Part shown: positions 1-26,166 of the stretch, one piece after another
Numbering within the stretch: the stretch's first letter is position 1
Layout of the letters: every line of letters starts with the position of its first letter
Assembly: GCA_029289095.1 (NCBI GenBank)
Contig: JARFUG010000030.1
Span: 1 to 38,325, forward strand
Direction: 5' to 3'
Origin: Desulfuromonadales bacterium
Lineage (GTDB): Bacteria; Desulfobacterota; Desulfuromonadia; Desulfuromonadales; JACZKF01
Length of the DNA stretch: 38,325 nucleotides
Made by a program: the position numbers and the translations under genes
The notes under the pieces: model-generated
The model's input: only the letters and a program-made list of their open reading frames with translations
What the model was told of the DNA's origin: nothing
Databases searched by the model: none

Positions 1-48
1 TGCAGTTGGGTCACGAAGAACCACTCACCCTTTTACGCAGATCGATAA

Positions 49-3000
49 ATGACTAAGAGCATTGTCGCCATCTTGTTTCTTCTCGTTGTTCCTGCGGCCG
101 CAGTAGAGGGCTCTGCACGCAGCAAAGATGCGGATTCCGTGCGTGAAACGGCTTCTCTGGGCGGGGCGGTCGAATTCCATCTCCCCTCCGACGAGATCTT
201 CATCCCCTGGATTCATGACCCCTCCATATTCGACGAGGCGGGAGACCGCATCGAAACTCGGCAGGTCGTCGAGAACGAGGTGACGACGATCAAGCTTGAA
301 AATCTCGTCCCCCCCATCCTCTTTCGCCTCGGCGAGGCCGAGGTCTCCGAGGAGCACCTCGAGTTCCTCCGCGACGTCCTCAATGGCATGCGCCACCGCA
401 GCAACGTTCGGCTCCATTTCGTCGGGCATTCCGATGCACTGCCGCTGAGCGAGCAACTGGCCGCGATCTACGTCGACAACATCGGACTGTCCCGGGAGCG
501 GGCTGGAACGACAGCGGAATATTTCCAGCGCGCACTCGATCTCCCCCCCCATGCGATCTCCTACGAGGGGATGGGCGAGACCCGTCCCGTCGCGGACAAC
601 GCCACGGAGGAAGGGCGTAGGCTCAATCGCCGCGTCGAGGTCCAGGTCTGGTACGACGAGATCAGCGACAAGCTCGTCGAAAGGGACGTCATCGTCCCCT
701 CCGAGGTGAACCGCATACAGGTCTGCCGTGTCGAGACCGTCTGCAAAATGCGCTACAGGGAAGGGCACGCGCACCGCGCCCGCGTGAAAAACCTGATCGC
801 CCCCCTCTATTACGTCGACGGCATGGCGGAGACGCCCGAAGCCTATGTGCAGCAGGTCGCTCAGGCTCTGAGGAATCTTCGCGGCAAGGAAAACGTTGTC
901 GTGCGCTTCATCGCCCACACCGACAACGCTCCTTTGAGCGGACGCGACGAGCGCATCTACGGCAACCACGCCGGGCTCTCGAGCGCCATCGCCCGTCGCG
1001 TCTCCCTCGCCGTCCAGGAAAGTCTGGGCCTGTCGCCGGGCGCCGTTGAAAGCGAGGGGAGGGGAGCGCTGCAGCCGGTGGCAGGGAACGACACGCAGCA
1101 GGGGCGCGCGTTCAACCGGCGCGTCGAAGTGGAGTTCTGGTACGACGATCCCCTGCAGGAGTTGCCGGACGAACCGCAGCTCTGCCCTGAGGATGGCGGC
1201 TCGCAGATCGTCACCCGCGTCTACGATCCGCCGTCGGGCGGCCTCGATCCGATCGTCTTCCGCGAGGGCCGGCCTTTCGTTCCCGCCGGATTGCCTGAAC
1301 GGCTGCGTGCCGTCATGGACGAAATAGATCACAAGTCCAATGTGCGCCTGCGCTTTGTCGGCTACACGAGTAATGAACGCCTCGACCGCCGCACCGCCGC
1401 CGTCTACGGCGACGACATTGGATGGTCGACGGCCCGCGCCCGCCGCGCCATGGAGACCGTCCGTGAGCAGATGAAGTTGAAAGAGGGGGAAACAGAGTTC
1501 GAAGGGCGCGGTTTCGTCCAGTCCGATGACGTGGTGAACGCAGGCTTCATCACGTCGGATTCGTCCAGGGTTCAGGTGCAGGTTCTCTACGACGAAACCG
1601 TCCTGCGCGACGACTATGAGGGGGTCGATATCGCCCCTCTGACCCGAACGGTGCGTCCCTCCAATCCCTTCGGCCTCAACCTGATGCGCATCACCGTCGA
1701 CGGACGCCCGCTGGACGACCCGGGAAGGAGCATCCCCGACATCCAGCGTTGCACCGACGTCGCCCTCGACAGGGCCCATATCGAATTCAAGCACGACAGC
1801 CTCAGGCTCGAGCCCCGTTTGAACATCACCGCCTGGCCGCGCATCATCCGCTATCAGGACGCCGAGGAAACCGATTTTCCGGAAAACCTTGTCAACTTCC
1901 GACTCTACACCAACTATCGCAGCTTCATTGACCGTGCGGAGGTGAGAATCTTCGAAGAAGGGCAGTCTGCGCGTGACGCCCCCTTCGCTGTCGTCGAGAT
2001 CGACGATGACGGCATGGCGCAATGGCAGCCGAACTTCGAGGAGTACTCCGCGCCGGGACGAACTTTCAACTATCTCGTCCGGGTCTACGATTCGGCAGGG
2101 CGCTTCGATGAAACGATTTTCCAGCCGATCCGGGTTCTCGACCGCATCGACCCCTCCATCGCAGAGGCCGATCTCCAGAAGGAACTGCTCGTCGGATACG
2201 GCGAAAGCCGCATCGCGAGCCGCAACATCCCCCTTCGGGGCGGCTCGGTCGAGGCCCGCGGCAGCGCCATTCCCCCGGGGCACGGGGTCTGGCTGGCCGG
2301 CTACGAGGTTCCGGTGGACGGCCAGGGGCGATTCGTCGCAGAGGAAATCCTTCCCGACGGGCTTCACACGGTAGAGGTCGCCATTCTCGACAGGGGCGGC
2401 AACGGCGAGCTCTTCCTGCGCGACCTGAGGCTTGAAAAGAGCGACTGGTTCACCGTGGGGATCGCCGACCTGACCTTCTCCGCCAACAAGACCAATGGCC
2501 CGGCCCGGCTCCTCGCCCCCGACAGACGCCAGTACAGCGACGATTTCGACGTGCAGGGGCGCCTCGCTTTCTACACGAGCGGCAGGTTCGGGGACGGCTG
2601 GAGCCTCACCGCAAGCGCCGACACCCGCGAAGGGCCGCTCGATGAGATCTTCAGCAATTTCATGGACAAGTCGCCCGACGCCCTCTTCAGGCGCATCGAC
2701 CCGGATTTGCATTATCCGACCTACGGCGACGACGGCGTCGTTACAGAAGATGCGCCGACGATGGGGAAGTTCTATGTGCGTCTGGCCAGGGACAGGAACT
2801 ACGGGCTCTGGGGGAACTTCAAAGTCGGCTACACCGACAACACCCTGGCCCATGTCGATCGGGGTCTCTATGGCGCCAATGTGCACTATCAGAGTCTTGC
2901 TACGACGAGCTTCGGCGAGGAGCGCTTCATGGTCGACGGCTTTGCCGCCGAACCGGGGACGGTGGCGGGGCGGGACGAATTCCGCGGGACTGGCGGATCT

Positions 3001-5127
3001 CTCTACTTCCTGAGAAAACAGGACATCCTCGCCGGTTCGGAGCGCGTGCGCATCGAAATTCGCGACAAGGATTCGGGGATGGTGCTGGGCGTGAAGAATC
3101 TCGTCCCCGTTCTCGACTACGACATCGACTATCTGCAGGGGCGCATCCTTCTGTCTCAGCCTCTTTCCGGAACGGCGGACGATTCGCTCCTGGTGCACAG
3201 CGGCTCTTTCAGCGGTCACCCCGTCTTCCTCGTCGCGCGCTATGAATTCACCCCTGGCTTCGAGGACCTCGACGCCCTTGCGGCGGGGGGACGCCTGCAC
3301 TACTGGTTCGGCGACACCGTGAGACTCGGAGCGACGGCGAGCCGATTCGAGGAGGTCGGAAGCGAGAACACCCTGAACGCCGCAGATCTGATCGTTCGCA
3401 AATCGGCCCAGACATGGCTGCGCCTCGAGGGAGCGCGCAGCGAAGGACCGGGGCTCCTCGCGACGACCTCCGTCGACGGCGGCTTCCACTTCGGCATCGA
3501 CCAGGGGCTGGACGGCATCGACGTCGAGGCGTGGGCCTGGCGCGTCGACGCGGCCGTCGGATTGGGCGATCTTTTCGAAAGGGGGCGGGGGCGCCTCACC
3601 TTCTACCTCCAGGACCTCGAAGCAGGCTATTCGGCGCCGGGACTCGTCACCGACAGGGACCTGACCCAGTACGGCGCATTCGCAGATCTCCCTCTTTTCG
3701 ACCGCTTTTCTCTGCGCATCAAGGGGGACAGGTCGGTGCAGAACGAGGGGCTCGAGACCGACGCCGTCGAGCTCAACGTCGACTACCAGTGGGACGCCCA
3801 TTGGACGGTGAGCTCGGGAGTGCGCCACGACAGCCGCCGGGACAACTCCGCCGTCGTCCCCCTCACCCAGGAGGAAGGCGAGCGCACCGATGCCGTCGTC
3901 CAGCTCCTGTACGATTCGCGTGGGCGCTGGAACGCCTATGGATTCGTGCAGGACTCGCTGAAGACGACCGGCAATCGCGAGGACAACTTCCGGGTCGGCA
4001 GCGGCGGCGCCTTCCGGCTGACCGATCGCTTCAGGGTCGATGGGGAAGTTTCCGAGGGCGATCTCGGGGCGAGCGCCCGTGTCGGAACCGACTTTCTCTA
4101 TACCGATCGCACCAACCTCTATTTCAACTACGCATTCGAGAACGAGCGCACCGACAACGGTTTGCGCGCCAGAAAAGGGAATATGGCCTCGGGGTTTCGG
4201 ACCCGCTATTCGGACAGCGCAAGCGTCTATCTCGAGGAGCGCTATACCCACGGAGACGTGCCGACGGGGCTGACCCATTCCACGGGGGTTGATCTTTCCC
4301 CTGTCGACCGCCTCAACCTCGGCGCCAATCTCGATTTCGGCACTCTGAAGGATCGTCAGACCGGATCTGAACTCAAGAGGACGGCAGCGGGTGTGCGGGC
4401 TGGCTACGGATTCGACAGGCTCGCTCTCGCCAGCGCTCTCGAGTTCAGGGTCGACGAAACCCAGCATCCCGACCTGACGACCTCCAGACGCACCACCTGG
4501 CTGACACGAAACAACCTGAGATATCAGATTTCCGAGGACTGGCGCCTCATCGGGAAGTTCAACTATGCCCACAGCCAAAGTTCCCTCGGCCAGTTCTTCG
4601 ACGGCAACTACGCCGAGGCGGTGATCGGGTACGGGTATCGACCCGTGCATCACGACCGCCTCAACGCCCTCGTCAAGTACACCTTCTTCTACAACGTCCC
4701 GACGGCCGAACAGACGACGGGAGCGGTCGCCGCCTCAGGCGTCATTCAGCGCAGTCATATCGGGGCGATCGACGTGATGTACGATCTGACTCCGCGATGG
4801 ACTGTCGGAGGGAAGTACGCCTACCGGCATGGCGAGGTGAGCCAGGACCGCGTGGACCGGGAGTTTTTCACCAGCCGCGCGCATCTCTACATCGTGCGGG
4901 CCGACTGGCACTTCATTCACCGCTGGGATGCACTCATCGAAGGGCGACTTCTCGATCTCCCTGACGCCCAGGACCGCCTCGGCGGGGTCCTGCTCGGCCT
5001 CTACCGGCACATGGGGAACCACGTCAAGCTCGGCGCCGGCTACAACTTCAGCCGCTTCTCCGACGACCTGACCGACCTCGATTACAGGCGCCAGGGGCTG
5101 TTCATCAATTTGATCGGGAAATTGTGA
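49..5127 (+). CDS. Large outer-membrane protein with three OmpA-like domains and a C-terminal beta-barrel
   Basis: The 1692-residue product starts with a signal peptide (MTKSIVAILFLLVVPAAA). Three OmpA/MotB-like peptidoglycan-binding domains follow at about residues 85-205, 250-370 and 395-520. The first two share the pattern GHSD or AHTD, then LSxxRA or LSSAIA, then EGxGxxxPVAxN, then NRRVEVxxWYD. The third is more diverged (GYTSN, EGRGF). Residues about 570-800 look like Ig-like beta modules. From about residue 820 to the end the sequence has the alternating amphipathic pattern of an outer-membrane barrel and ends on a barrel-like strand (FINLIGKL). The inferred role is a barrel anchored to peptidoglycan, forming the outer-membrane end of the machine encoded downstream. 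No convincing Shine-Dalgarno precedes ATG 49, and the window starts too close to show a promoter. The OmpA calls are firm and the barrel is likely; its substrate is unknown. Confidence 0.85.
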   Translation: MTKSIVAILFLLVVPAAAVEGSARSKDADSVRETASLGGAVEFHLPSDEIFIPWIHDPSIFDEAGDRIETRQVVENEVTTIKLENLVPPILFRLGEAEVSEEHLEFLRDVLNGMRHRSNVRLHFVGHSDALPLSEQLAAIYVDNIGLSRERAGTTAEYFQRALDLPPHAISYEGMGETRPVADNATEEGRRLNRRVEVQVWYDEISDKLVERDVIVPSEVNRIQVCRVETVCKMRYREGHAHRARVKNLIAPLYYVDGMAETPEAYVQQVAQALRNLRGKENVVVRFIAHTDNAPLSGRDERIYGNHAGLSSAIARRVSLAVQESLGLSPGAVESEGRGALQPVAGNDTQQGRAFNRRVEVEFWYDDPLQELPDEPQLCPEDGGSQIVTRVYDPPSGGLDPIVFREGRPFVPAGLPERLRAVMDEIDHKSNVRLRFVGYTSNERLDRRTAAVYGDDIGWSTARARRAMETVREQMKLKEGETEFEGRGFVQSDDVVNAGFITSDSSRVQVQVLYDETVLRDDYEGVDIAPLTRTVRPSNPFGLNLMRITVDGRPLDDPGRSIPDIQRCTDVALDRAHIEFKHDSLRLEPRLNITAWPRIIRYQDAEETDFPENLVNFRLYTNYRSFIDRAEVRIFEEGQSARDAPFAVVEIDDDGMAQWQPNFEEYSAPGRTFNYLVRVYDSAGRFDETIFQPIRVLDRIDPSIAEADLQKELLVGYGESRIASRNIPLRGGSVEARGSAIPPGHGVWLAGYEVPVDGQGRFVAEEILPDGLHTVEVAILDRGGNGELFLRDLRLEKSDWFTVGIADLTFSANKTNGPARLLAPDRRQYSDDFDVQGRLAFYTSGRFGDGWSLTASADTREGPLDEIFSNFMDKSPDALFRRIDPDLHYPTYGDDGVVTEDAPTMGKFYVRLARDRNYGLWGNFKVGYTDNTLAHVDRGLYGANVHYQSLATTSFGEERFMVDGFAAEPGTVAGRDEFRGTGGSLYFLRKQDILAGSERVRIEIRDKDSGMVLGVKNLVPVLDYDIDYLQGRILLSQPLSGTADDSLLVHSGSFSGHPVFLVARYEFTPGFEDLDALAAGGRLHYWFGDTVRLGATASRFEEVGSENTLNAADLIVRKSAQTWLRLEGARSEGPGLLATTSVDGGFHFGIDQGLDGIDVEAWAWRVDAAVGLGDLFERGRGRLTFYLQDLEAGYSAPGLVTDRDLTQYGAFADLPLFDRFSLRIKGDRSVQNEGLETDAVELNVDYQWDAHWTVSSGVRHDSRRDNSAVVPLTQEEGERTDAVVQLLYDSRGRWNAYGFVQDSLKTTGNREDNFRVGSGGAFRLTDRFRVDGEVSEGDLGASARVGTDFLYTDRTNLYFNYAFENERTDNGLRARKGNMASGFRTRYSDSASVYLEERYTHGDVPTGLTHSTGVDLSPVDRLNLGANLDFGTLKDRQTGSELKRTAAGVRAGYGFDRLALASALEFRVDETQHPDLTTSRRTTWLTRNNLRYQISEDWRLIGKFNYAHSQSSLGQFFDGNYAEAVIGYGYRPVHHDRLNALVKYTFFYNVPTAEQTTGAVAASGVIQRSHIGAIDVMYDLTPRWTVGGKYAYRHGEVSQDRVDREFFTSRAHLYIVRADWHFIHRWDALIEGRLLDLPDAQDRLGGVLLGLYRHMGNHVKLGAGYNFSRFSDDLTDLDYRRQGLFINLIGKL

Positions 5128-5139
5128 AGTGCAGGGGCC

Positions 5140-5188
5140 GACGCGGCCGCGTCTGATCAGACGGATAGGTCGGATCGGACGGATCCGA
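5140..5188. repeat. Intergenic palindromes and 9-bp tandem repeat
   Basis: A perfect 14-bp palindrome (GACGCGGCCGCGTC, 5140-5153) overlaps a perfect 12-bp palindrome (GTCTGATCAGAC, 5151-5162). Three 9-bp units follow (CGGATAGGT, CGGATCGGA, CGGATCCGA at 5162-5188), with a degenerate fourth unit just before them. Similar GGTCGGAT-type intergenic repeats are familiar from Geobacter-like genomes; that comparison is from memory. It could be a REP-like element or an mRNA-stabilising structure between operon genes. Confidence 0.6.
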
Positions 5189-5252
5189 TGCGGCCGGACT
5201 TGGCAGTGGCGGCAAAGCAAAGAACCGAATCCAACAACAACAGGTGGCAATC

Positions 5253-5765
5253 ATGATCAAGTGGCTGAAGATAGCGGTTCCTGTGTTGACGATGCTCATG
5301 CTGAGCCTCTCCGCCCATGCGCAGAACGTCTCGCGGGAGCAGATCAAGGGGCTCGATGAGCAGGTTCAGGAGATCAAGAGCGACATTCTCGACATCGCCG
5401 CGCAGCTCAACCGCCTGGAGGAGAGGCTTCTCTATCCGTCTGAAACCCAGGTCGCGGTCTTTGTGTCGCTCGGCGCAGGGGAGAGGTTTCGTCTCGATTC
5501 TATCGAACTCAAGGTCGGCGGCAGGACCGTCGCGCATCATCTCTATACCTACAAAGAGCTCGAAGCGCTGCAGAAAGGGGGTGTCCAGCGCCTCCATACC
5601 GGCAACGTGACGACCGGGGAGCACGCGATGGAGGTGACCCTTCTCGGCAGGTCTGGTGGAAGCGATCTCCGAAAAAATGCGAGCTTCACCTTCAATAAAG
5701 AAGTGGGGCCGAAGATCGTCGAACTGGTCGTGTCGAACCAGGGCATCACCCTCAAGGACTGGTAG
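5253..5765 (+). CDS. Exported coiled-coil protein of the envelope operon, function unknown
   Basis: The 170-residue product (MIKWLKIAVPVLTMLMLSLSAHAQ) has a clear signal peptide ending at AHA-Q. A heptad-rich coiled coil follows at about residues 27-60 (QIKGLDEQVQEIKSDILDIA and on), then a beta-rich domain of about 100 residues. ATG 5253 is preferred because CAGGTGG lies 8-10 bases upstream; an in-frame GTG at 5244 would add three residues and cover that site. It sits 125 bases after the OmpA-barrel gene and 59 before the TPR gene, on the same strand. I do not recognise a named family. A periplasmic adaptor is inferred from the signal peptide, coiled coil and context. Confidence 0.8.
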   Translation: MIKWLKIAVPVLTMLMLSLSAHAQNVSREQIKGLDEQVQEIKSDILDIAAQLNRLEERLLYPSETQVAVFVSLGAGERFRLDSIELKVGGRTVAHHLYTYKELEALQKGGVQRLHTGNVTTGEHAMEVTLLGRSGGSDLRKNASFTFNKEVGPKIVELVVSNQGITLKDW

Positions 5766-5799
5766 GGGCGATGCGTGCGAACACAAGGTTCGCCCCTAC
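5762..5799. repeat. 10-bp perfect inverted repeat at the gene junction
   Basis: GTAGGGGCGA (5762-5771) is the exact reverse complement of TCGCCCCTAC (5790-5799), with an 18-base loop. The left arm contains the stop codon of the upstream gene. It resembles the dispersed TAGGGGCGAACC-type repeats of many environmental genomes. No T-run follows, so it is a hairpin repeat and not a convincing terminator. Confidence 0.6.
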
Positions 5800-5824
5800 G
5801 AACACATCCTTTTTCGAGACTGCC

Positions 5825-7714
5825 ATGCCCAGACTCCTGGTTCTGCTGACAATCCTGCTCTTCGCCACCTCCTCCATGGCTGCCGGCGCCTCCGCCCCGA
5901 AGGAGCTGAGAGACCTCTATTTCGGTGAGGCGCTCTATCACGCCTTTCAGGGGGAGTGGTTCGATTCCATTGCCCGGCTCGACACCGAGCTTGGCCAGTT
6001 CTACGGCCTCGACGAGCCCCGGCTCGACACCCTCTATTTCCACTTGAATCATGCGGAGTTCTCCGTCGGCGACTTCGAGCTCGCTTACCGCATGCATCGA
6101 CGTGCCGGGCGGGCCATAACGAGGGTGATCGAGGGAAAAGTCGAAGAACCGGTGCGCAACGACGCGATCTTCCGCCTGGCGCGGATCTACTTTCAGAAGG
6201 ATCAGCCGGATAACGCCCTTCACGCCGTGGAGCGCATCCGCGGAAGCGTCCCGCCCGCCATCCGCGACGATGTCGAATTTCTGCGGGCGCAGATCTACAT
6301 GGCCAACGGCCGGCATGCCGAGGCGGCGCGCCTCTTCAGGGATCTGCAGGGCTCGAGAACTCTGGAGGGCTTCAGCACCTACAATCTCGGCATCGCCCTG
6401 CTCAGGGACGGAGACGAGCAGGGAGGGCGCGGATCTCTCAACCGCACCGGGCAGATCGGAGCCCGAACCCCTTCCACACAGGCGATCCGGGACAAGGCGA
6501 ACCTCGTTCTCGGATACAGGCTCCTTGAAGATGCCCATCACGATGGAGCCAAGGAAGTCCTCGACCGCGTCCGGTTGAGCGGCCCCTTCTCCAATCGGGC
6601 GCTGCTCGGTTCGGGATGGGCCGACGCCAATGCGGAGCGGTTCGATCGCGCACTCGTTCCATGGAGCATTCTGGCGGAGCGCGAGGTCACCGATGCGGCG
6701 GTGCAGGAGGCGATGCTCGCCCTTCCTTACGCCTACGGGAAACTCAATATTCACGGCCGCGCTGCCGTTCTGTACGCCAGAGCTCTTGAAGCCTTCGGGA
6801 CCGAGGTCGACAGGCTCAGTGCATCCATCGCCGTCATTCGGGAGGGAAAATTTCTCAAGGCTCTTGTGCGCGAGGAACTGAAGCAGGACAGCAACTGGGT
6901 CGTCAGGCTGCGGCAGCTCCCCGAAACCCCCGAAACGTTCTATCTCCTCGAGCTGATGGCGTCCCACGATTTCCAGGAATCGCTCAAGAACTACCTCGAT
7001 CTTGAGCAGTTGCGCAAAAAGCTCGAAGTCTGGGAGAAGGATCTCGACGCCTTCGAGGAGATCATCCGGATCCGCCGTGCCTATTACGAACCCCTGCTCC
7101 CCGGGATCGACCTGGAGTTCCGGCGACTTGACTCGCAGATGCGTCTTCGCATCGAACAGCGCGACCGGATCGCGCAGCGACTCCAGGGGATGCTGACGGC
7201 GCCGAGGCCTGATTTCCTCGCAACGGCCGAGGAGCGGGTCCTCAGAGAGGAGATCTTGAGGCTCGAGCAGCATCTCGCCCGACAGGGATCTCTCGTCCCC
7301 GACGACATCGAGGCGCGCATCAGGCGTCTCAGGGGCGTCATCGACTGGGACATCCATACCGAATACGACCACCGTCTGACGGTTGCACACCAGAACCTGT
7401 ACGAACTCAACACAATCATCGACAGCCTGCAGAAACAGCACGCGGCCTATGTTCGCATCCGCCAGGCCGCGACCCACAGTTACGAGGGGTACGACGACCT
7501 GATCCGGCGCCAGCGCCTCAAGATTCGTACATCTCGCGAGACCGTTGGAGAACTGATGGCGCGACAGGGTCATTTTCTCGAGGTCATGGCGGTCAACGAA
7601 CTCGCGCGGCGACGCGATCGCCTTGAGGAGTTCCAGGTCACGGCACGCTTCGCCCTTGCAGACAGCTACGACCGCGCCACCAGAGCCCAGGGGGAAAAGA
7701 GGATGGAGCAATGA
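5825..7714 (+). CDS. Periplasmic TPR and coiled-coil protein
   Basis: The 629-residue product starts with a signal peptide (MPRLLVLLTILLFATSSMAA). ATG 5825 is chosen because the reading frame opens 18 codons earlier inside the hairpin repeat and that extension lacks signal-peptide character. The N-terminal half (about 25-330) consists of helical TPR-like repeats such as YFGEALYHAFQGEWFDSIAR and FLRAQIYMANGRHAEAARLF. The second half (about 360-600) is long charged helix with strong coiled-coil character. It overlaps the next gene by four bases (ATGA, 7711-7714), so translation is probably coupled. The inferred role is a periplasmic scaffold in the trans-envelope machine, comparable in kind to TPR proteins of gliding systems; direct orthology is not shown. 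Confidence 0.8.
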   Translation: MPRLLVLLTILLFATSSMAAGASAPKELRDLYFGEALYHAFQGEWFDSIARLDTELGQFYGLDEPRLDTLYFHLNHAEFSVGDFELAYRMHRRAGRAITRVIEGKVEEPVRNDAIFRLARIYFQKDQPDNALHAVERIRGSVPPAIRDDVEFLRAQIYMANGRHAEAARLFRDLQGSRTLEGFSTYNLGIALLRDGDEQGGRGSLNRTGQIGARTPSTQAIRDKANLVLGYRLLEDAHHDGAKEVLDRVRLSGPFSNRALLGSGWADANAERFDRALVPWSILAEREVTDAAVQEAMLALPYAYGKLNIHGRAAVLYARALEAFGTEVDRLSASIAVIREGKFLKALVREELKQDSNWVVRLRQLPETPETFYLLELMASHDFQESLKNYLDLEQLRKKLEVWEKDLDAFEEIIRIRRAYYEPLLPGIDLEFRRLDSQMRLRIEQRDRIAQRLQGMLTAPRPDFLATAEERVLREEILRLEQHLARQGSLVPDDIEARIRRLRGVIDWDIHTEYDHRLTVAHQNLYELNTIIDSLQKQHAAYVRIRQAATHSYEGYDDLIRRQRLKIRTSRETVGELMARQGHFLEVMAVNELARRRDRLEEFQVTARFALADSYDRATRAQGEKRMEQ

Positions 7715-10700
7715 AGGGACTGCGGCTTCTCATCCTGTTGTCAGTGCTGATTTTTCTCTGCGCCTGTCAGTCACCGGGCGACCGGGATACGATCGCCAAG
7801 CTGCGCACGGCGCCGGCAGATCTCCGGGAAGAAACCATCGAAGGCGGACTCGAAAAAGCGATGGAGAGCTATCAGCGCTTTCTGACGGACACACCGGAAT
7901 CGGCCCTGACTCCTGAGGCGATTCGCCGTCTCGCCGACCTAAAGGTGGAGAGGGAGTACGGATATTTGACCGGAGGATTTGCCTCACAGAGCCTGCCGAC
8001 TTCTTTAGATTCCACAAGAGCGGATCAAGGAATAGGGGCATCCTCCGTCCATGCCGCCTTGGGCAGTTACCGTCCCGAGCCTCTCCAGGCAAGAGAGTCC
8101 GAAGAGTTCGTTCATGCGCCCATCTTTCAGGAGTCTGAGGACGAGTTCGAGAAACGGATGACGGAGTTCCCGCCCGGTTCGGTCTCCCCCCTCGACGATC
8201 TTGAAAGGGCGGGGACGCTGGAGGCGATCGCCCTCTATCAGAAACTCCTCACGGACTACCCGCACTACGACCGCAACGACCAGGTTCTCTACCAGATGTC
8301 CCGGGCGTACGAGGAACTCGGAAGAATCGAGGAGGCGATGGATGTGATGGACCGCCTCGTGCACGAATTCCCCCGCTCCCGATATATCGACGAAGTGCAG
8401 TTCCGCCGCGCCGAATACTTCTTCACCCAAAGGCGCTGGCTCGATGCAGAGGAGGCTTATGCGAGCATCGCCGAAATGGGAGTCGCCTCCTCCTTCTACC
8501 AACTCGCCCTCTACAAGCTCGGGTGGACCTTCTACAAGCAGGACCTCTATGAGGACGCCCTGCACAGGTTCATTGCCCTGCTCGATTACAAGGTATCGGT
8601 GGGACACGATTTCTCGCAGACGGAAGACGAGCCTGAGCGCAAGCGTCTCGAAGATACCTTTCGCGTAATCAGCCTGAGTTTCTCCAATCTCGGCGGACCC
8701 GACTCGGTTGTCGATTACTTCTCCCGATTCGGCAGGCGTGGCTACGAAGACGGTGTCTACAGCAATCTTGGCGAGTTTTATTTCGACAAACTGCGCTACG
8801 CCGACGCCACCGCGACGTACAACGCCTTCATCAGCCGCAATCCGTTCCACAAGAGGTCGCCCCATTTCCACATGCGGGTCATCGAAATCAACATCGCCGG
8901 AGGATTTCCGAGTCTCGTCCTGCAGTCGAAGAAAGACTTCGCCACCACTTACGCTCTGACGGCCCCCTACTGGAAGCATTTTGAACCAAGCGACCATCCC
9001 GAGGTGCTCGGGTACCTGAAGGCGAACCTGACCGACCTTGCCAACCATTACCACGCCCTCTACCAGGACCCCCAACATCTCGAGGAAAAGACGGAGAACT
9101 TCAACGAGGCGCTGCACTGGTACAGGGAGTTCCTCGTTTCATTTCCGAGGGAAATCGAATCTCCTGCCATCAACCACCAGATGGCCGATCTGCTGCTTGA
9201 GAACCGCTTCTTTGCGCAGGCTGCCGTCGAATACGAGAGGACGGCCTACGGCTACCCTCTCCATGCGAGCGCTTCGGCTGCCGGCTATGCGGCGATTTTC
9301 GCGCACCGGGAGCATCTCGGCGTCGTCAGCGCCCCGGGGCGCGAGGCGGTTCGGCGTGAGGTCGTGCGCAGCTCCCTCACCTTTGCCGACACCTTCCCGG
9401 AACACGAAAAGGCGTCGATCGTCCTCGGGGCTGCCGCCGACGACCTGTACGACATGAAGGACTTTGCGGGCGCTCTGGCGGCCGCCACGAAGCTCATCGA
9501 GGTCTTCCCAGGCGCCGATACCGAGGTGCTGCGCGGCGCCTGGCTGGTGAGCGCTCATTCATCCTACGAGCTTAGACACTACGCAGACGCCGAGAGCGCT
9601 TACGTGAACGTGCTCGCGCTGCTTCCTCCCGATGATGAAGCACGCGATGGCCTGATCGACAACCTGGCCGCCTCGATCTACCGGCAGGGTGAGGAGGCGA
9701 TCTTCCTGGAAGATTACCGGGCAGCGGCCGGTCACTTCCTCCGGGTAGGGCGCATGGCGCCGACCTCCTCGATTCGGGTGAACGCTGAGTATGATGCCGC
9801 GGCCGCGCTGATACAGCTCAAGGACTGGGAAATGGCGGCCGCCGTTCTCACCGCATTTCGGAGCGCTTTTCCCGGACACGAACTCCAGCCTGAGGTGACC
9901 AAGAAGATCGCACATGTCTACAGGGAAGACGGTCAGCTCTCGAAGGCGGCCGCCGAATACGAGCGCATCGAGCGAGAATCCGATGATGAGGAGGTGAGAC
10001 GCGAGGCGCTGCTCATTGCCGCAGAGCTTCACGAAGAGGCGCGAGACTCATTGCGCGCCCTGGCAGTCTATCGGCGCTATGCCGAGTATTTCCCGCGGCC
10101 GGTGGAGCTCAATCTCGAGACGCGGCGCAAGATTGCCGACATCCTCAAGGCCGACAATGACGAGCAGGGTTATCTGGCCGAACTGAGGCGCATCGTCGAT
10201 ATCGACGCCTCCGCGGGGCGGCAGCGCACTGCACGGACGCGCCACCTGGCCGCGCACGCTGGGCTGGTGCTGGCCGAGCCGAAGTACCACCAGTTCGTGG
10301 AGGTGAAGCTGAAAAAGCCTTTCGAACAGAACCTGCGCAGGAAAAGGGACCTGATGAGAGTGGCGACACAGGAATACGTTCGGCTCGTCGACTACGAAGT
10401 CGCTGAGATCACGGCCGCCGCCACCTTCTATCTCGCCGAGATCTATGCCCACTTCAGCAAGGCGCTGATGGAGTCGGAGCGCCCTGACGACCTGAGCCCC
10501 CTGGAGCTGGAGATGTACGAACTCGCCATCGAGGAGCAGGCGTATCCGTTCGAAGAGCAGGCGATCACGGTCCATCAGAACAACCACGAGTTGATCTCCC
10601 TGGGGATTTACAACGTCTGGGTCGAAAGAAGCATGCGCAGACTCGCCGAAATGGTGCCGGCGCGTTACGCCAAGGACGAAGAGACCAGCGGGGTCATCGC

Positions 10701-10965
10701 GTCTCTTGGAACGTACGTCTTCGAGATCGACAGGCCCGCGGCCGCGGAGCCGATGGTGGTGGAAGGGGCGGCAGAGCAAAACCAGGCGATCGTGCCTGTT
10801 GAGCAAACGCTGCCGGCCGTAGGGTACTCGGTGATCGATGAGGACGCGCCGGTGGAAACGGCGCAGATCGAGGAAACGGTGCAGGCCGAAGAGACGGTGC
10901 AGACCATGATCGTCAAAGGCAAATTTACCGCCGAGGACGCAGAGAACGTAAAGGCAAAGCAATGA
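7711..10965 (+). CDS. Large TPR lipoprotein (1084 residues)
   Basis: The N-terminus MKGLRLLILLSVLIFLCACQ is a lipoprotein signal with lipobox LCAC. Residues about 150-900 contain many TPR or TPR-like units, for example IALYQKLLTDYPHYDRNDQV, VLYQMSRAYEELGRIEEAMD and YYALYQ-type helices. The start overlaps the preceding stop codon (ATGA). The C-terminal 60 residues are low in complexity: near-repeats IEETVQ and AEETVQ, then a tail (FTAEDAENVKAKQ) encoded by the intergenic repeat at 10929-10994. The inferred role is a lipid-anchored periplasmic hub that binds the other operon products. A TolA/YbgF-type or GltE-type partner role is possible. The family assignment beyond TPR is uncertain. Confidence 0.85.
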   Translation: MKGLRLLILLSVLIFLCACQSPGDRDTIAKLRTAPADLREETIEGGLEKAMESYQRFLTDTPESALTPEAIRRLADLKVEREYGYLTGGFASQSLPTSLDSTRADQGIGASSVHAALGSYRPEPLQARESEEFVHAPIFQESEDEFEKRMTEFPPGSVSPLDDLERAGTLEAIALYQKLLTDYPHYDRNDQVLYQMSRAYEELGRIEEAMDVMDRLVHEFPRSRYIDEVQFRRAEYFFTQRRWLDAEEAYASIAEMGVASSFYQLALYKLGWTFYKQDLYEDALHRFIALLDYKVSVGHDFSQTEDEPERKRLEDTFRVISLSFSNLGGPDSVVDYFSRFGRRGYEDGVYSNLGEFYFDKLRYADATATYNAFISRNPFHKRSPHFHMRVIEINIAGGFPSLVLQSKKDFATTYALTAPYWKHFEPSDHPEVLGYLKANLTDLANHYHALYQDPQHLEEKTENFNEALHWYREFLVSFPREIESPAINHQMADLLLENRFFAQAAVEYERTAYGYPLHASASAAGYAAIFAHREHLGVVSAPGREAVRREVVRSSLTFADTFPEHEKASIVLGAAADDLYDMKDFAGALAAATKLIEVFPGADTEVLRGAWLVSAHSSYELRHYADAESAYVNVLALLPPDDEARDGLIDNLAASIYRQGEEAIFLEDYRAAAGHFLRVGRMAPTSSIRVNAEYDAAAALIQLKDWEMAAAVLTAFRSAFPGHELQPEVTKKIAHVYREDGQLSKAAAEYERIERESDDEEVRREALLIAAELHEEARDSLRALAVYRRYAEYFPRPVELNLETRRKIADILKADNDEQGYLAELRRIVDIDASAGRQRTARTRHLAAHAGLVLAEPKYHQFVEVKLKKPFEQNLRRKRDLMRVATQEYVRLVDYEVAEITAAATFYLAEIYAHFSKALMESERPDDLSPLELEMYELAIEEQAYPFEEQAITVHQNNHELISLGIYNVWVERSMRRLAEMVPARYAKDEETSGVIASLGTYVFEIDRPAAAEPMVVEGAAEQNQAIVPVEQTLPAVGYSVIDEDAPVETAQIEETVQAEETVQTMIVKGKFTAEDAENVKAKQ

Positions 10966-10994
10966 GGCTTCGGGTTTTCTCTGCCTTCTCGGCG
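10929..10994. repeat. CGCAGAGAA-type inverted repeat spanning a stop codon
   Basis: The left arm CGCCGAGGACGCAGAGAA (10929-10946) and right arm TTCTCTGCCTTCTCGGCG (10977-10994) pair at 16 of 18 positions. The stop codon of the TPR lipoprotein gene (10963-10965) lies in the loop. A related core (GCGCAGAGATCGCAGAGAA) appears in the next repeat, near 11757. This looks like a widely dispersed intergenic repeat that has entered a gene end. Confidence 0.65.
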
Positions 10995-11038
10995 CCCTTT
11001 GCGCTGAAAAATGAAATGGATGAATGGAGAAAGATGCG

Positions 11039-11704
11039 ATGCAACTGATCACCGGAGAAGGCAAAAGGCAAGCCGCAGTCCTCGCGCTGATTTTAGCGAC
11101 GGCCATCCTCGCAGGGTGCGCCACCGGCGGAAAATCCCGGCCGCCGATCTCTGCCCCTGCGACGGAGGGTCTGAGAGTGGAGCGGCTCGAGGAGGGGAGG
11201 GAAGGATTCGTCATCGTTGAAACCCCCCGAATGAGCCCGGAATCCCGCAGCGATTTTGAGCGTGCCGTCGCACTGCTGAAAGCGGAGGAATACTTGCGGG
11301 CGGCCGAGCTGCTCGAAAAGCTGATCGAAAGCTCTCCGGGCGTTACGGCGCCCTATATCAACGCCGCCATCGCCTACAGGCATCTTGAGAACCCGGAGCG
11401 GGCCGAAGCGCACCTGAAGGAAGCGCTGAAGCTGATTCCCCAGCATCCGGCGGCGAACAACGAATACGGCCTCATGCTCCGAAAGACCGGTCGGTTCGCC
11501 GAGGCGCGAGACGTCTACGAGAAGACCCTCGAGACTTTTCCGGACTACTATCCCGTTCGTCGCAATCTCGGGATTCTCTGCGATCTGTACCTGAGCGATC
11601 CGCAATGTGCACTGGAGCAGTACGAGATCTACAGCGAAGCCGTTCCCGACGATGAGCGGGTCAGGATGTGGGTCGCCGATCTGCGCATGCGGCTGGGACT
11701 TTAA
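11039..11704 (+). CDS. TPR lipoprotein (GltE/AglT-like)
   Basis: The 221-residue lipoprotein has the lipobox LAGC within VLALILATAILAGCATGG. ATG 11039 is chosen because GGAGA lies 7 bases upstream and gives a compact signal; ATG 11024 would add five residues. About three to four TPRs span residues 75-215 (FERAVALLKAEEYLRAAELL, INAAIAYRHLENPERAEAHL, EYGLMLRKTGRFAEARDVYE). It lies between two hairpin repeats in the envelope operon. Small TPR lipoproteins are standard partners in Tol-Pal-like and gliding machineries (AglT/GltE in Myxococcus), so a structural role at the outer-membrane inner leaflet is inferred. The orthology needs a profile search. Confidence 0.85.
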   Translation: MQLITGEGKRQAAVLALILATAILAGCATGGKSRPPISAPATEGLRVERLEEGREGFVIVETPRMSPESRSDFERAVALLKAEEYLRAAELLEKLIESSPGVTAPYINAAIAYRHLENPERAEAHLKEALKLIPQHPAANNEYGLMLRKTGRFAEARDVYEKTLETFPDYYPVRRNLGILCDLYLSDPQCALEQYEIYSEAVPDDERVRMWVADLRMRLGL

Positions 11705-11730
11705 GGATACGAGCAAAATGCAATTTTTCC

Positions 11731-11850
11731 CGCCCGTTCGCTTCGCTCACTCGAGGCGCAGAGATCGCAGAGAATTCATAAGCGTTAGCCGAAATTCTTT
11801 CTGGTTTTCTCTGCGGTCTCTGAGCCTCGAGCGACTGCAAGGAGCGGGCG
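11731..11850. repeat. 120-bp imperfect inverted-repeat element
   Basis: The outer arms CGCCCGTTCGCTTCGCTCAC (from 11731) and TGCAAGGAGCGGGCG (ending 11850) pair imperfectly. The inner arms pair better: CTCGAGGCGCAGAGATCGC (11750 on) against TCTCTGCGGTCTCTGAGCCT and CGAG (ending 11831). The central loop is AT-richer. The element fills most of the 172-base gap between two genes of the operon and ends just before a strong ribosome site. It shares the GCAGAGA core with the repeat at 10929-10994. Confidence 0.65.
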
Positions 11851-11876
11851 TGAGATGCTTTTTAAAGGAGGAATAC

Positions 11877-12152
11877 ATGCATCGGAAAATCGCTGTCATT
11901 CTGTGTCTTGTCCTTTTGACGCCTGGAATCGCCACAGCCCAGGAGGACGGAACGGAGGCAATGGAGCTTTCGGGGATGTCGATCGTCGGCAACGACGAGG
12001 CCCCCAAATCGCTCTACATCGTGCCATGGAAGAGCTCCGAGATCGGGGTTGAGACGAGTCTGAACAGGATGCTGAACGAGAGCGACGTCCCCGTCGACCG
12101 GGACGTCTTCATGCGGGAGCTCGATTTTTATGAAGTTAGCAGGAGCCAGTAG
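11877..12152 (+). CDS. Small exported protein of the envelope operon
   Basis: The 91-residue product starts MHRKIAVILCLVLLTPGIATA-QE, a clean signal peptide. ATG 11877 has a strong ribosome site (AAAGGAGG, 11865-11872). The frame continues upstream through the hairpin repeat, but that part is not signal-like and is rejected. The mature protein is about 69 residues and acidic (AMELSGMSIVGNDEAPKSLY), with no recognised domain. The last few codons (SRSQ) run into the next repeat. Its position immediately before the TolQ/TolR genes and its strong ribosome site suggest a periplasmic accessory subunit. The function is unknown. Confidence 0.75.
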   Translation: MHRKIAVILCLVLLTPGIATAQEDGTEAMELSGMSIVGNDEAPKSLYIVPWKSSEIGVETSLNRMLNESDVPVDRDVFMRELDFYEVSRSQ

Positions 12153-12155
12153 CCA

Positions 12156-12212
12156 GGAGTTGGGAGATAGGAGTTAGGAGTGAATCCGGTATTTCTACCA
12201 ACTCCCAACTCC
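12156..12212. repeat. GGAGTTGGGAG inverted repeat
   Basis: GGAGTTGGGAG (12156-12166) is perfectly complementary to CTCCCAACTCC (12202-12212). Extra partial copies (GGAGCCAG, GGAGTTAGGAG) lie on the left side. The element fills the gap between the small exported protein and the TolQ gene, ending shortly before the TolQ ribosome site. Confidence 0.6.
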
Positions 12213-12251
12213 CAGATACAAATTATTCATTCACAAGGAGGCAGAACAGTT

Positions 12252-12905
12252 ATGGACACGTTCTACGCAATCATTGGTTTTTTCCAGAAGGGCGGGCTTT
12301 TCATGTACCCGATCCTGATCGTCTTCGCCGTCGGGATGGCGATCGCAATCGAACGCTGGTTTCAGTTGAGCCGCATCCGAAGCGAGAACCGCAGGATGTG
12401 GAACGAACTCCATCCGGTGCTGGTCGAGGGCGATTTCGAAAAGGCGCGCGAGATGGTCAGCGAGGATAAGTCGACCATCTCTCAAATGCTCGGGATGGGG
12501 CTGGCGCGTCAGGGTGCTGTCAGGCGGCGCGAAGACATCGAGATCGCCATGGAGGAGAGCATGATGGAGATCATTCCGCAGTTGGAGCGGCGCACCCCCT
12601 ATGTTGGGCTCCTTTCCAACATCGCCACACTTCTCGGGCTTCTCGGCACCATCATGGGTCTGATCGAGGCCTTCACCGCCGTTGCCAACGCCAATCCGGC
12701 CGAGAAAGCCGATCTCCTCTCGGCCAGTATCTCGGTCGCCATGAACACCACCGCCTTCGGGCTGATGGCGGCCATCCCCCTTCTGCTCATTCATGCCAAG
12801 CTGACGTCGACCACCGGGCAGATCGTCGACAGCCTGGAGATGGCGTCGGTCAAGGCGCTCAACAGCATCTCCAGCACCGCCAAGCGCCAATTCCAGGCGA
12901 GTTGA
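12252..12905 (+). CDS. TolQ/ExbB/MotA-family proton channel subunit
   Basis: The 217-residue product matches the TolQ/ExbB family in length. ATG 12252 follows AAGGAGG (12235-12241). TM1 is at about residues 14-34 (LFMYPILIVFAVGMAIAIER). The conserved pair of helices follows at about 115-140 (YVGLLSNIATLLGLLGTIMG) and 160-180 (SVAMNTTAFGLMAAIPLLLI). The LLGTxxG and NTTxFGLxxAIP motifs carry the Thr residues that line the proton path in TolQ and ExbB. The protein would form the inner-membrane pentamer around a TolR dimer and use proton-motive force. It is followed at 2 bases by TolR-1, which overlaps TolR-2. The gene order equals AglR-AglQ-AglS of the Myxococcus gliding motor. Confidence 0.93.
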   Translation: MDTFYAIIGFFQKGGLFMYPILIVFAVGMAIAIERWFQLSRIRSENRRMWNELHPVLVEGDFEKAREMVSEDKSTISQMLGMGLARQGAVRRREDIEIAMEESMMEIIPQLERRTPYVGLLSNIATLLGLLGTIMGLIEAFTAVANANPAEKADLLSASISVAMNTTAFGLMAAIPLLLIHAKLTSTTGQIVDSLEMASVKALNSISSTAKRQFQAS

Positions 12906-12907
12906 CG

Positions 12908-13399
12908 ATGGGGAGGCGACATCGGTACAAAAAGCGGATGAAAGAGACCCCGGAGCTCAACATCACCACCTTCCTGAACCTGATGGTCGTCCTGATCCCT
13001 TTTCTGCTCATCAGCGCTGTCTTCTCGCGCGTGACGATCGTGGAGCTGAGCGTGCCGACAGGCGCAGGCGGTGCGGCCTCGAACAAGCCCAACTTCAGCA
13101 TCGAGGTGATCGTTCGCGACAAGGGGCTGGAACTGGCGGACGGATCGAGAGTGGTCGCTGCGATTCCGAAGAAGGATGATGCCTACGACATGGAAAAGCT
13201 CTCCAGGATGCTGCTCAGCCTCAAAGCCGAATATCCGGAGAAGGAAGACGCCATCGTCCTGATGGAGCCCCAGATCGAATACGATCACCTCATTGCGGTG
13301 ATGGACGTCGTGCGGGCCGCCGAAATCCAGGGCAAACAGGGGGATGAGCTTCAAAGGGTCGTCCTTTTCCCCGATATTTCCATCGGAGATGCGCCATGA
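12908..13399 (+). CDS. TolR/ExbD-family protein lacking the membrane Asp
   Basis: The 163-residue protein has a short basic cytoplasmic tail (MGRRHRYKKRMKE), one membrane helix (LNITTFLNLMVVLIPFLLIS, about 17-36) and a periplasmic ExbD-type domain. ATG 12908 is chosen; TTG 12902 is possible but less likely. Where TolR and ExbD have the proton-carrying Asp (LxLxPLxDVxxxLLxFF), this protein has Asn24 (TTFLNLMVVL). That change is expected to block proton relay in this chain. It ends with a four-base overlap (ATGA) with TolR-2, so the two are probably made in equal amounts and pair with each other. Confidence 0.9.
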   Translation: MGRRHRYKKRMKETPELNITTFLNLMVVLIPFLLISAVFSRVTIVELSVPTGAGGAASNKPNFSIEVIVRDKGLELADGSRVVAAIPKKDDAYDMEKLSRMLLSLKAEYPEKEDAIVLMEPQIEYDHLIAVMDVVRAAEIQGKQGDELQRVVLFPDISIGDAP

Positions 13400-13890
13400 A
13401 GAACAGCAGACGTATAAAACGGATGGGGCGCAACAGGAAAGCTGTGCCCGGGCTGAACCTGACGTCGCTGATGGACGTCTTCACCATCCTGGTCTTCTTC
13501 CTTCTCGTGAACTCCGCCGCCAGCGAAGTTCTCGAACCTCCGAAGCAGATCACCCTGCCCGACTCGGTGGTCGAAGCCAAGCCGAGGGAAACAGTGGTCA
13601 TAATGGTCGGTACCGAAACGGTGACGGTTCAGGGAGAAGAGGTGATCCGAACACCCGAACTCCTCGAGGTGCGCGCTGAGACAATTGGCGCCATCACCGA
13701 ACGTCTCGAGTTCCTTGAGCGCAATATCATCGGGATCAGCACTCAGGCAGTCGTCGACAGCAAGGAGGTCACCATTCTGGCCGACAGGACGATTCCATTC
13801 AGCGTGCTGAAAAAAATCATGTCGACCTGCACCCAGTCCGGGTACGGCAAGATCTCCCTCGCTGTCATCCAGAAGGCCTCACAGGGGTAA
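13396..13890 (+). CDS. TolR/ExbD-family protein with intact membrane Asp
   Basis: The 164-residue protein has a basic tail (MKNSRRIKRMGRNRKAVPG), a membrane helix with Asp27 in the expected place (LNLTSLMDVFTILVFFLLVN), and a periplasmic ExbD/TolR domain ending with the typical TVPFxxLxxIMxTCxxxGYxKISLAV pattern (seen as RTIPFSVLKKIMSTCTQSGY). It is the proton-relay-competent partner of the preceding TolR-like protein. The TonB-like gene starts 2 bases after its stop codon. AglS or AglQ of Myxococcus are the closest functional analogues by gene order. Confidence 0.93.
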   Translation: MKNSRRIKRMGRNRKAVPGLNLTSLMDVFTILVFFLLVNSAASEVLEPPKQITLPDSVVEAKPRETVVIMVGTETVTVQGEEVIRTPELLEVRAETIGAITERLEFLERNIIGISTQAVVDSKEVTILADRTIPFSVLKKIMSTCTQSGYGKISLAVIQKASQG

Positions 13891-13892
13891 TC

Positions 13893-15278
13893 GTGCATAC
13901 ATCCATACTGTCACAGGAACTGGATCTGCTGAACGCCCAGATCGGGCAGGTGCGGGGGAAACTCGCCGGACTCGAAGGTGAGCTGCGCGCCGTGGAGTCG
14001 GAACTGGAGACGTTCTCCGTCGAAAGGACGCGTTTCGAGGCGCTGGGCAGTGTTTGCAACTCTCTCGACAGGCTCGCCGAAATCGGCGCGGGAGATCTTT
14101 TCTGGAGCGGGGTGCCCGAGCTCAGGGACCCGTCCGAATACCTGGCGCTGCTTCGCGAGCGCATCGGCGAATTCGAATCGGAGATCCTGGGGACCGTAGA
14201 AAGACGCGGGGCTCTCAGGAAGCAGATCGACGTCTTGCTCGACGATCTCGACGACCTCCATGAAGAAGTCCGCCAGGCGTATGCCCGTGAAGAGCGTCGC
14301 CAGGAAGAGTTCGTCGTCGAGCGCGAGATTTCGCCTCTCCCCTATCGCGCGATGATCATGCCCTGGAGCGGAGACCGGGCGAGCGAAGGACGTTTTCGGC
14401 GCACCGTTGCGCTTGCTCTGCTTCTGTGCATCGTCTTCGGTTCGCTCATTCCGATGATTACCCTGCCGGTGCGTGATCGCAGCCAGGTTGTCGAAATCCC
14501 CGAGCGGCTCGCCATGCTCGTCAAGAAGGAGCCGCCGAAACCCGAGCCGGCGCCGCAGCCGCAGCGCCCTGAGCAGGAGCCGAAGCCGGAGCCCGATCCG
14601 CAAAAGCCGCAGGAGCGTCCGCAACAGGAAAAGCCGCAACCGACTCCTGCCGAGAGGCAGACGGCGCGGAAGAAAGCCGAAAGTACAGGAGTTCTGGCCT
14701 TCAAGGATACTTTCGCAGACCTGCTGGAGGATCTCCCCGTGGCGAAACTCGGCGCCCAGGCCAGCCTGAGCAACGATGCGTCTTCGGGTCAGGCGACGGC
14801 GCAACGGTCGCTGGTGACGACGCAGGCCAGAGGCTCCAGCGGGGGTATCAGCACTGCGGCTGTCAGCCGCAACGTCGGAAGCGGGAATGCCGGCCGAATC
14901 GGCGGCGTCGACTTCGCCCGCGTCGAGAGCTCGGTCGCCGGGATCGGCCCCGAGGCGAGACCGCTGAGCGACGGACCGGGGCCGGCACGGACCGACGAAG
15001 AGATCCAGATCGTCTTCGATCGCTACAAAGCGACCCTCTACCGGATCTACAACACCGAACTGCGCAAGAACCCGACTCTTCGAGGAAAGATGCTGCTGCG
15101 CATCACCATCGAGCCGGGCGGCGAGGTCTCGGCGTGCACGGTCGAGTCGACCGATCTGGCGTCTGCCGAACTGGTGGCCCAGATTGTCGAACGCGTCCAG
15201 CGGTTCAATTTCGGACCAAAGGGCGATGTCCCCCGCGTCACCATCCTCTATCCGATCGATTTCCTCCCCGCCGGGTAA
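13893..15278 (+). CDS. TonB-like protein with coiled-coil N-terminus and AgmX/PglI (GltJ/GltG)-type C-terminal domain
   Basis: The 461-residue protein starts at GTG 13893 (AGGGG a few bases upstream). Residues 1-145 are helical coiled coil predicted to be cytoplasmic. TM is at about 171-191 (TVALALLLCIVFGSLIPMIT). A Pro/Glu/Gln/Lys-rich spacer at about 210-258 can span the periplasm. The C-terminal about 95 residues contain FDRYKATLYRIYNTELRKNP, LRGKMLLRITIEPGGEVSAC, then VQRFNFGP and VTILYPIDF. This pattern fits the domain shared by AgmX (GltJ) and PglI (GltG) of Myxococcus: a Tyr-rich helix, PxLxGKxxxxxxIxxxGxV, then FxF and YPxxF. It would transmit motion from the TolQ/TolR motor to the TPR and OmpA proteins. 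A large cytoplasmic coiled coil is not usual for TonB. Confidence 0.85.
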   Translation: MHTSILSQELDLLNAQIGQVRGKLAGLEGELRAVESELETFSVERTRFEALGSVCNSLDRLAEIGAGDLFWSGVPELRDPSEYLALLRERIGEFESEILGTVERRGALRKQIDVLLDDLDDLHEEVRQAYAREERRQEEFVVEREISPLPYRAMIMPWSGDRASEGRFRRTVALALLLCIVFGSLIPMITLPVRDRSQVVEIPERLAMLVKKEPPKPEPAPQPQRPEQEPKPEPDPQKPQERPQQEKPQPTPAERQTARKKAESTGVLAFKDTFADLLEDLPVAKLGAQASLSNDASSGQATAQRSLVTTQARGSSGGISTAAVSRNVGSGNAGRIGGVDFARVESSVAGIGPEARPLSDGPGPARTDEEIQIVFDRYKATLYRIYNTELRKNPTLRGKMLLRITIEPGGEVSACTVESTDLASAELVAQIVERVQRFNFGPKGDVPRVTILYPIDFLPAG

Positions 15279-15401: not shown

Positions 15402-16187
15402 ATGCGCTTCGTCCTCTACAACATACGATACGCAACAGGGGTGAGGATGCACGATTATCTTCGCTCCTCGAGCCGCAACCTCGAGCGGATTACGTTCTTT
15501 CTGCGTGATCTGCAACCCGATCTCGTCGGTCTGGTCGAAGTTGATCACGGCTCCTATCGCTCCCGGGGCAAGAATCAGGCACAGCTCATGGCCGACGCCC
15601 TCGGGCACTACCATTCATACTCGGTCAAGTACAAGGAAAACTCCCTCTGGCTCAACATCCCCGTACTGCGCCGGCAGGGCAATGCCTTTCTTGCCCGGGA
15701 TCGCATTCGAAACGAACGTTTCCATTTTTTTGATTACGGCATGAAGCGTCTCGTCATGGAGATGGAGCTCGATCACGTCGTCGTCTACCTGGTCCATCTG
15801 GCCCTCGGTTCGCGGGCCAGGCATCAGCAACTTGGGGCGCTCTACAAGTTGGTGAAGGGGAGCAGGAAACCCTACATCGTCGCCGGGGACTTCAACGCAT
15901 TATGGGGAGAGAGAGAGATCGATCTTTTTCTCGCGGCGACGGGGCTCAGGAGCGCCAACAGTCAAAGTCTCCCGACCTATCCAAGCAACAATCCCACCCG
16001 CCATCTCGACTTCATCCTCTGCAGCAGCCGGGTCAACATTCGCGATTTCAGCATCCCGCGGGTTCCCTATTCCGATCACCTCCCCCTCGTTCTCGATTTC
16101 GACATCAACGTGCGCAGGGAGAAGCGGAAAAAATCGCGCAGGCACGATAAATCAGACCGAGCGCTTCAGGAGCTCAGGGAAGTGTGA
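15402..16187 (+). CDS. Endonuclease/exonuclease/phosphatase (EEP) family protein
   Basis: The 261-residue protein spans a whole EEP fold. Visible motifs are YNIRYATG at the N-terminus, the metal-binding Glu in GLVEVDHG (about residue 47), HLALGSRARHQQ (about 132), GDFNALWG (about 162), RHLDFILCS (about 199) and SDHLPLVLDF (about 224). These give the expected Asn, Glu, Asp-x-Asn, Asp and Asp-His catalytic set for Mg-dependent phosphoester hydrolysis. There is no signal peptide and the C-terminus is very basic (RREKRKKSRRHDKS). The start is preceded by a G-rich ribosome site (GGGGGG). It overlaps the convergent CheW/LysM gene by 14 bases at its 3' end. The substrate (DNA, phospholipid or inositol phosphate) cannot be told. 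Confidence 0.88.
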   Translation: MRFVLYNIRYATGVRMHDYLRSSSRNLERITFFLRDLQPDLVGLVEVDHGSYRSRGKNQAQLMADALGHYHSYSVKYKENSLWLNIPVLRRQGNAFLARDRIRNERFHFFDYGMKRLVMEMELDHVVVYLVHLALGSRARHQQLGALYKLVKGSRKPYIVAGDFNALWGEREIDLFLAATGLRSANSQSLPTYPSNNPTRHLDFILCSSRVNIRDFSIPRVPYSDHLPLVLDFDINVRREKRKKSRRHDKSDRALQELREV

Positions 16188-26117: not shown

Positions 26118-26166
26118 GGGGCGCCGCTGAAAAGGAACACAGAGATATCACAATGGAGGATATGCC

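Follow-up and report, generated by a model that had tools for sequence, protein, structure and literature searches.

A standalone Agl-Glt/Nfs-type core machine of Desulfuromonadales and its genetic linkage to a giant adhesin-like protein

Agl motors use the proton motive force to drive both the Glt and the Nfs machinery, and in Myxococcus a D28N substitution in AglQ leaves the motor unable to conduct protons and the machine paralysed (PMC3858216); according to a review, AglQ and AglS both have the carrier Asp (PMC9389320). In 2011, Luciano and colleagues reported a seven-protein core of this machinery clustered in Geobacter, gammaproteobacteria, one betaproteobacterium and Fibrobacter, and their main text mentions one additional gene that it does not name (PMC3169522). 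The core comprises GltC, GltD, GltE and GltG plus AglR, AglQ and AglS, is standalone and has been assigned no function (PMC3169522, PMC3858216), although Wartel and colleagues considered it in 2013 as a possible basal transport machinery (PMC3858216). In Fibrobacter, the genes FSU_2396–2398 and FSU_2400–2403 (OmpA, TPR, TPR, TolQ, ExbD, ExbD, TonB) are upregulated on cellulose, and the FSU_2396 and FSU_2397 products (an OmpA and a TPR protein) reportedly form a complex that includes a fibro-slime protein (PMC6851124).

We analysed a 38,325-nucleotide stretch of DNA from a Desulfuromonadales bacterium (hereafter the window), in which open reading frames define ten consecutive plus-strand genes, A–J, at positions 49–15278 (Table 1). 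An earlier note, made from the window sequence, had described these genes as one operon, and they are real: homologues occur in the same order, with 43–88% identity, in genomes of the same taxonomic order. Family alignments shifted several starts inward (B to ~5271, C to ~5825, F to ~11877, G to ~12252 and H to ~12908). The domains, signal peptides and lipoboxes that the note had listed were borne out by Pfam, NCBIfam and reading of the sequence: TPRs in C, D and E, MotA_ExbB in G and ExbD in H and I (all Pfam), signal peptides in A, B, C and F, and lipoboxes in D (FLCAC, with Cys19 invariant across the D family) and E (LAGC). Its near-zero spacing of the last four genes corresponds to about −4 to +2 bases. 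J consists of an N-terminal coiled-coil part, one transmembrane segment, a proline-rich linker and an AgmX/PglI (TonB-like) tail, which matches the NCBIfam model of the AgmX/PglI C-terminal domain (NF033768) at 60.2 bits against a cut-off of 40; a profile search for a solved structure of a J relative returned none. B was modelled by AlphaFold with a mean pLDDT of 85.5, and a fold search returned transthyretin/Ig-like sandwich neighbours, none of which provided a functional lead. Elsewhere in the window lie an 872-amino acid protein that oddly combines three CheW domains with a LysM domain at its C-terminus, a long proline-rich stretch linking them (16177–18792, minus strand), and a pair of neighbouring genes whose products have the multicopper-oxidase N-terminal domain (Cu-oxidase_3; 24672–27453).

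Table 1. Genes of the locus in the window, with predicted products and the basis of each assignment
Gene	Coordinates	Strand	Predicted product and basis
A	49..5127	+	Exported 1692-aa outer-membrane protein: OmpA-like units x3, middle domains, large C-terminal beta-barrel
B	5271..5765	+	Exported; coiled-coil plus transthyretin/Ig-like beta-sandwich; family conservation, AlphaFold
C	5825..7714	+	Exported TPR/coiled-coil protein; GltC homologue; Pfam, profile matches adjoining GltD homologues in Myxococcota
D	7711..10965	+	Large TPR lipoprotein; GltD homologue; Pfam/NCBIfam, profile matches
E	11039..11704	+	TPR lipoprotein; GltE homologue, short form; weak GltE-model match, collinearity
F	11877..12152	+	Small exported protein; conserved motif GMSIxGNxEAPKSLxIxPWKSS; occupies the GltF place
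G	12252..12905	+	TolQ/AglR-like proton channel subunit; MotA_ExbB domain
H	12908..13399	+	First TolR/AglQ-like subunit; ExbD; Asn replaces the proton-carrying Asp
I	13396..13890	+	Second TolR-like subunit; ExbD; invariant Asp27
J	13893..15278	+	Bitopic force transducer; GltG homologue without FHA domain

Comparison with Myxococcota linked this operon to the Agl-Glt/Nfs core. The D profile identified a frame of 1059–1324 amino acids ~4–7 kb from the GltG homologue in all eight Myxococcota genomes searched. Its matches at the gltD position had E values of 1e-19 to 1e-60 in the GltG loci, and down to 1e-66 when all the Myxococcota loci are counted. Across 13 Myxococcota loci, matches to D, E and J were ordered gltD-gltE-gltG in nearly all, and C (gltC) stood ahead of gltD wherever the stretch extended that far. 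The ORF that precedes gltD gave a weak to clear match to the C profile in most loci (7e-4 to 2e-15), the E profile matched the ORF after gltD through a TPR similarity that is weak alone and gains weight from its position, and the J profile matched the GltG homologues. Four further Myxococcota loci are arranged as (C)-D-E-G-H-I-J, the window order with the motor inside, and two of these four have a weak B match in front. This collinearity of C-D-E-J with gltC-D-E-G identifies the locus with the Agl-Glt/Nfs 'core complex', the features of which are present: homologues of GltC, GltD and GltE, a GltG-type transducer, one TolQ and two TolR. As judged by homology, the locus almost certainly belongs to the class of standalone Agl-Glt/Nfs-type core machines, class alone being meant. 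The earlier note's trans-envelope complex with a TolQR-type motor and kinship to Agl-Glt/Nfs is upheld by these profile matches and this collinearity; its word 'undescribed' is not, since the core was already reported in 2011 (PMC3169522) and 2013 (PMC3858216), Geobacter included.

A small exported protein also lies between E and J at the gltF position of the Myxococcota loci. F resembles GltF in its place, its size and its signal peptide, but showed no profile similarity (E 0.3). The proteins at the GltF position share YDFEDDxVxGDLxxPDG...SLIxIRxxFxPEMLKSVEDL, and the F family shares GMSIxGNxEAPKSLxIVPWKSS.

We surveyed 58 genomes from the family and order, 14 of which, besides this genome, contained a close TolQ (72–88% identity). 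The same ten genes followed in the same order wherever the contig was long enough, with the sole exception of genome G031, which keeps B–J with neither A nor the giant gene Z (described below) beside them. The G031 loci (L045 and L139) hold a divergent core, with C and D at 43–51% identity and no Z-A alongside, and by eye its flanks are pilM-Q-like and aro genes upstream and an M48-like TPR metalloprotease downstream. A search of a species-level genome collection with the D profile gave 239 relatives, and we read the best 80 of these. The order B-C-D-E-F-G-H-I-J is kept in these ~80 loci, barring small genes missed by mechanical gene calls, and this neighbourhood survey confirms that the genes are conserved together in relatives. 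Hosts among the best 80 include Desulfuromonadia (Geotalea, Geobacter, Citrifermentans, Geomonas and Malonomonas), many Gammaproteobacteria (Alcanivorax, Woeseiaceae and Steroidobacteraceae), Betaproteobacteria (Methylibium and Gallionellales) and a few Myxococcota; a search for plasmid-borne relatives of D found none. In a tree of D, the window protein falls in a 39-row, mainly Desulfuromonadia clade with a support of 100. Four contigs labelled Chromatiales, Methyloceanibacter, Haliea and Nitrospirae (L051, L057, L065 and L067) carry the Desulfuromonadia-type locus and represent either misbinned MAG contigs or transfer.

The contig of the window (C141) begins 48 bp before A, so that a further gene of the system is missing from it. 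In all 19 Desulfuromonadia-arrangement loci with >800 bp upstream of A, a giant gene, Z, lies immediately upstream on the same strand, giving the order Z-A-B...J, and its C-terminal profile scores 403–496. Where complete in same-order genomes, Z has 1885 to 4380 amino acids, an N-terminal hydrophobic signal-like segment and DUF11, DUF7507, DUF7619, SdrD_B and isopeptide-type fimbrial domains; by eye, its C-terminal end resembles an atypical OmpA-type domain. A DUF11/SdrD_B/isopeptide make-up is typical of fibrillar adhesin stalks in a recent survey (PMC12617251), and both features, the signal peptide and the tandem DUF11/isopeptide stalk domains, are present in Z, which we regard as adhesin-like with a putative adhesive role. 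Gamma- and betaproteobacteria have a permuted block, B...J-Z-A: in five such loci that were read through, Z frames of 1923–4432 codons end at the A start on the same strand, with J visible before Z in three. Among the remaining loci whose flanks are long enough, Z adjoins the core in almost all, and in three Burkholderiales-type loci (L092, L101 and L109) a Z-like frame lies upstream of B on the opposite strand. In this genome, Z occupies ~11271–20778 of contig C30, a span that includes a run of N; the contig ends at 20778, and the frame leaves it a few codons short of the expected stop. Taken with the start of C141, this break indicates that A and Z are very probably adjacent here and separated by an assembly break. 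The cargoes listed in the earlier note (motility, polysaccharide, cytochrome and outer-membrane transport) omit the best candidate, Z, which was lost at that break.

Of the three OmpA-like units that the earlier note had assigned to A, two were recognized by Pfam and the third, missed by Pfam, by alignment to those two (30–37% identity, best E 1e-17). The C-terminal barrel is predicted by AlphaFold, with moderate confidence, to have ~26–30 long strands, which is unusually large (mean pLDDT 60 over 1133 residues and ~70–87 across much of the barrel). Because this model is moderate, a conduit wide enough for Z is only conjectural. A fold search with the model returned generic large outer-membrane barrels (TonB-dependent receptors, LptD and AlgE) and identified no family. 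A 1542-codon open frame antisense to A (25–4653, minus strand) probably arises from the base composition of GC-rich coding sequence and gives no sign of being a gene.

H and I, both TolR-like, are not alike at the carrier position: H has Asn in 76 of 79 relatives and I has Asp in all 80. Core-type pairs of Myxococcota and some motor-only pairs are Asn/Asp too, and the other pairs are Asp/Asp. Together with the effect of AglQ D28N, Asn in H and Asp in I suggest that the motor probably uses one carrier per H–I pair, if H and I heterodimerise. Dependence on proton motive force is likewise suggested by the conservation of Asp27 in I and by homology. Two kinds of TolQ-TolR-TolR cassette, Asn/Asp and Asp/Asp, are seen in Myxococcota (L222–L233). 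Several Desulfuromonadia and related loci (L046, L047, L048, L049, L052, L053, L059 and L067) have a second TolQ directly after J, with ~71–76% identity to the window TolQ where measured, so that these operons end in a duplicate of the channel subunit.

In the reading that we favour, an Agl-type proton motor acts via GltC/D/E-like parts on the barrel of A and displays or moves the adhesin Z; as a whole statement, with the core assigned by homology and the cargo by linkage, this could as well be wrong as right. At the inner membrane, homology establishes an AglR-like channel, G, with two TolR-like partners, H and I; protons passing through G together with I, which alone of the partners has a carrier Asp, would drive J. 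J, which is GltG-like and able to span the periplasm, would push or pull an assembly of C, D, E and B, and this assembly would pass the force to A, the outer-membrane barrel with OmpA-like units. The client Z would be exported through A or anchored by it and then displayed, retracted or moved along the surface; the outcome would be attachment to solids or cells and perhaps also a slow movement on surfaces. The Fibrobacter cluster that responds to cellulose, with its fibro-slime complex, is a parallel from the literature (PMC6851124). We propose that the machine exports or moves Z because in relatives its genes almost always adjoin the Z gene, a linkage that would also fit a Z that is merely anchored. 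Points against an adhesin machine are the moderate barrel model, the B–J locus of G031 without Z-A and the location of Z and A on two contigs in this genome. That Z-A-B...J constitutes a proton-powered adhesin system in its own right, in which an Agl-type motor whose asymmetric TolR pair has a single Asp drives a giant isopeptide-stabilised fibre passing via or from a very large barrel with OmpA-like anchor units, is a tentative proposal that we consider possible rather than probable.

Co-occurrence bears on whether Z-A is instead an independent adhesin-secretion or surface-layer-like pair that has only its genomic neighbourhood in common with the motor core. A near-full-length A relative is present in 14 of 14 system-bearing genomes, and A occurs in 14 of 15 same-order genomes with the core TolQ versus 1 of 43 without it (Fisher p 2e-11). 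This association, and the retention of the block on both sides of the rearrangement across phyla, make independence unlikely, although the Z-A block does shift between both ends of B–J, part of A occurs in G035 without a close core TolQ and the core of G031 has no adjoining Z-A. Partial or weaker relatives of A with no close core TolQ were seen in G035, G054 and G020.

The cargo of the same core could also be a polysaccharide or other surface polymer, with Z-A as a surface receptor or scaffold alongside: Nfs, a close functional relative, handles the spore coat, and Agl-Nfs moves a carbohydrate polymer (PMC3858216). However, Z and A recur beside the cluster in ~80 loci and no family of glycan synthesis or export does, and we consider this improbable. 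We give still less credence to a true gliding machine in which Z would be a focal-adhesion adhesin and A an outer-membrane platform, travelling along the cell as in Myxococcus. The homology of the core to Glt/Agl and the sharing of a locus by a motor and an adhesin-like protein speak for gliding, but the operon has no genes with the size and domains of GltI or GltJ, J lacks the FHA domain of GltG, and Geobacteraceae and Alcanivorax are not known to glide. A Tol-Pal or CpoB-like system for envelope stabilising or division, suggested by the TolQ/TolR homology and by a D score above the cut-off of the YbgF model (97 bits against 90), has next to no chance of being correct: none of the ten proteins has a TolB domain, G scores 56.9 bits against the TolQ equivalog, far below its cut-off of 221, and TolB lies with another TolQ at a separate locus on contig C11, so the cluster is not a known Tol-Pal operon, an outcome that the earlier note had weighed.

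Returning to the adhesin-moving machine that we favour, what may be new here is the conserved adhesin-barrel pair Z-A and the Asn/Asp motor, the core itself being already known. In the openly accessible literature searched, we found no paper that ties DUF11 adhesins to a TolQ/Glt cluster, which leaves priority uncertain. The standalone Agl-Glt core was reported in 2011 with no function assigned to it; a conserved, physically linked client candidate and an outer-membrane partner in cultured Geobacteraceae and Alcanivorax make that function directly testable. Because H and I pair Asn with Asp in nature, they also allow one to ask how many carrier residues a motor of this type requires.

Compared with the core of Luciano and colleagues (Group B genes), the locus is alike in clustering homologues of GltC, GltD, GltE and GltG with those of AglR, AglQ and AglS in the arrangement C-D-E-(motor)-J, and differs in extent, since A, B, F and giant Z also belong to the conserved unit seen here. 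With the gliding Agl-Glt system of Myxococcus it shares the motor plus the GltC/D/E/G homologues; in contrast, J has no Pfam match to the FHA domain of GltG and a coiled coil at its N-terminus, H has Asn where AglQ has Asp28, and A and Z stand in place of the Group A proteins (GltA, B, F, H, I, J and K). The Nfs sporulation system of Myxococcus has the same core family but relies on an AglRQS motor encoded elsewhere, whereas the window operon contains its own. Likeness to Tol-Pal extends to the TolQ/TolR fold, OmpA domains and a TPR lipoprotein, yet this operon has two TolR and no TolB. If Z-A-B...J is a dedicated adhesin system, its logic would be unlike both T9SS/SprB gliding and LapA-type adhesin retention. 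The Fibrobacter cluster FSU_2396–2403, which from its locus tags appears to be the Fibrobacter core of Luciano and colleagues, has by those tags the same OmpA, TPR, TPR, TolQ, ExbD, ExbD, TonB order as the window; compared by annotation, its reported partner is a fibro-slime protein, in place of the DUF11 protein that we propose for the window system.
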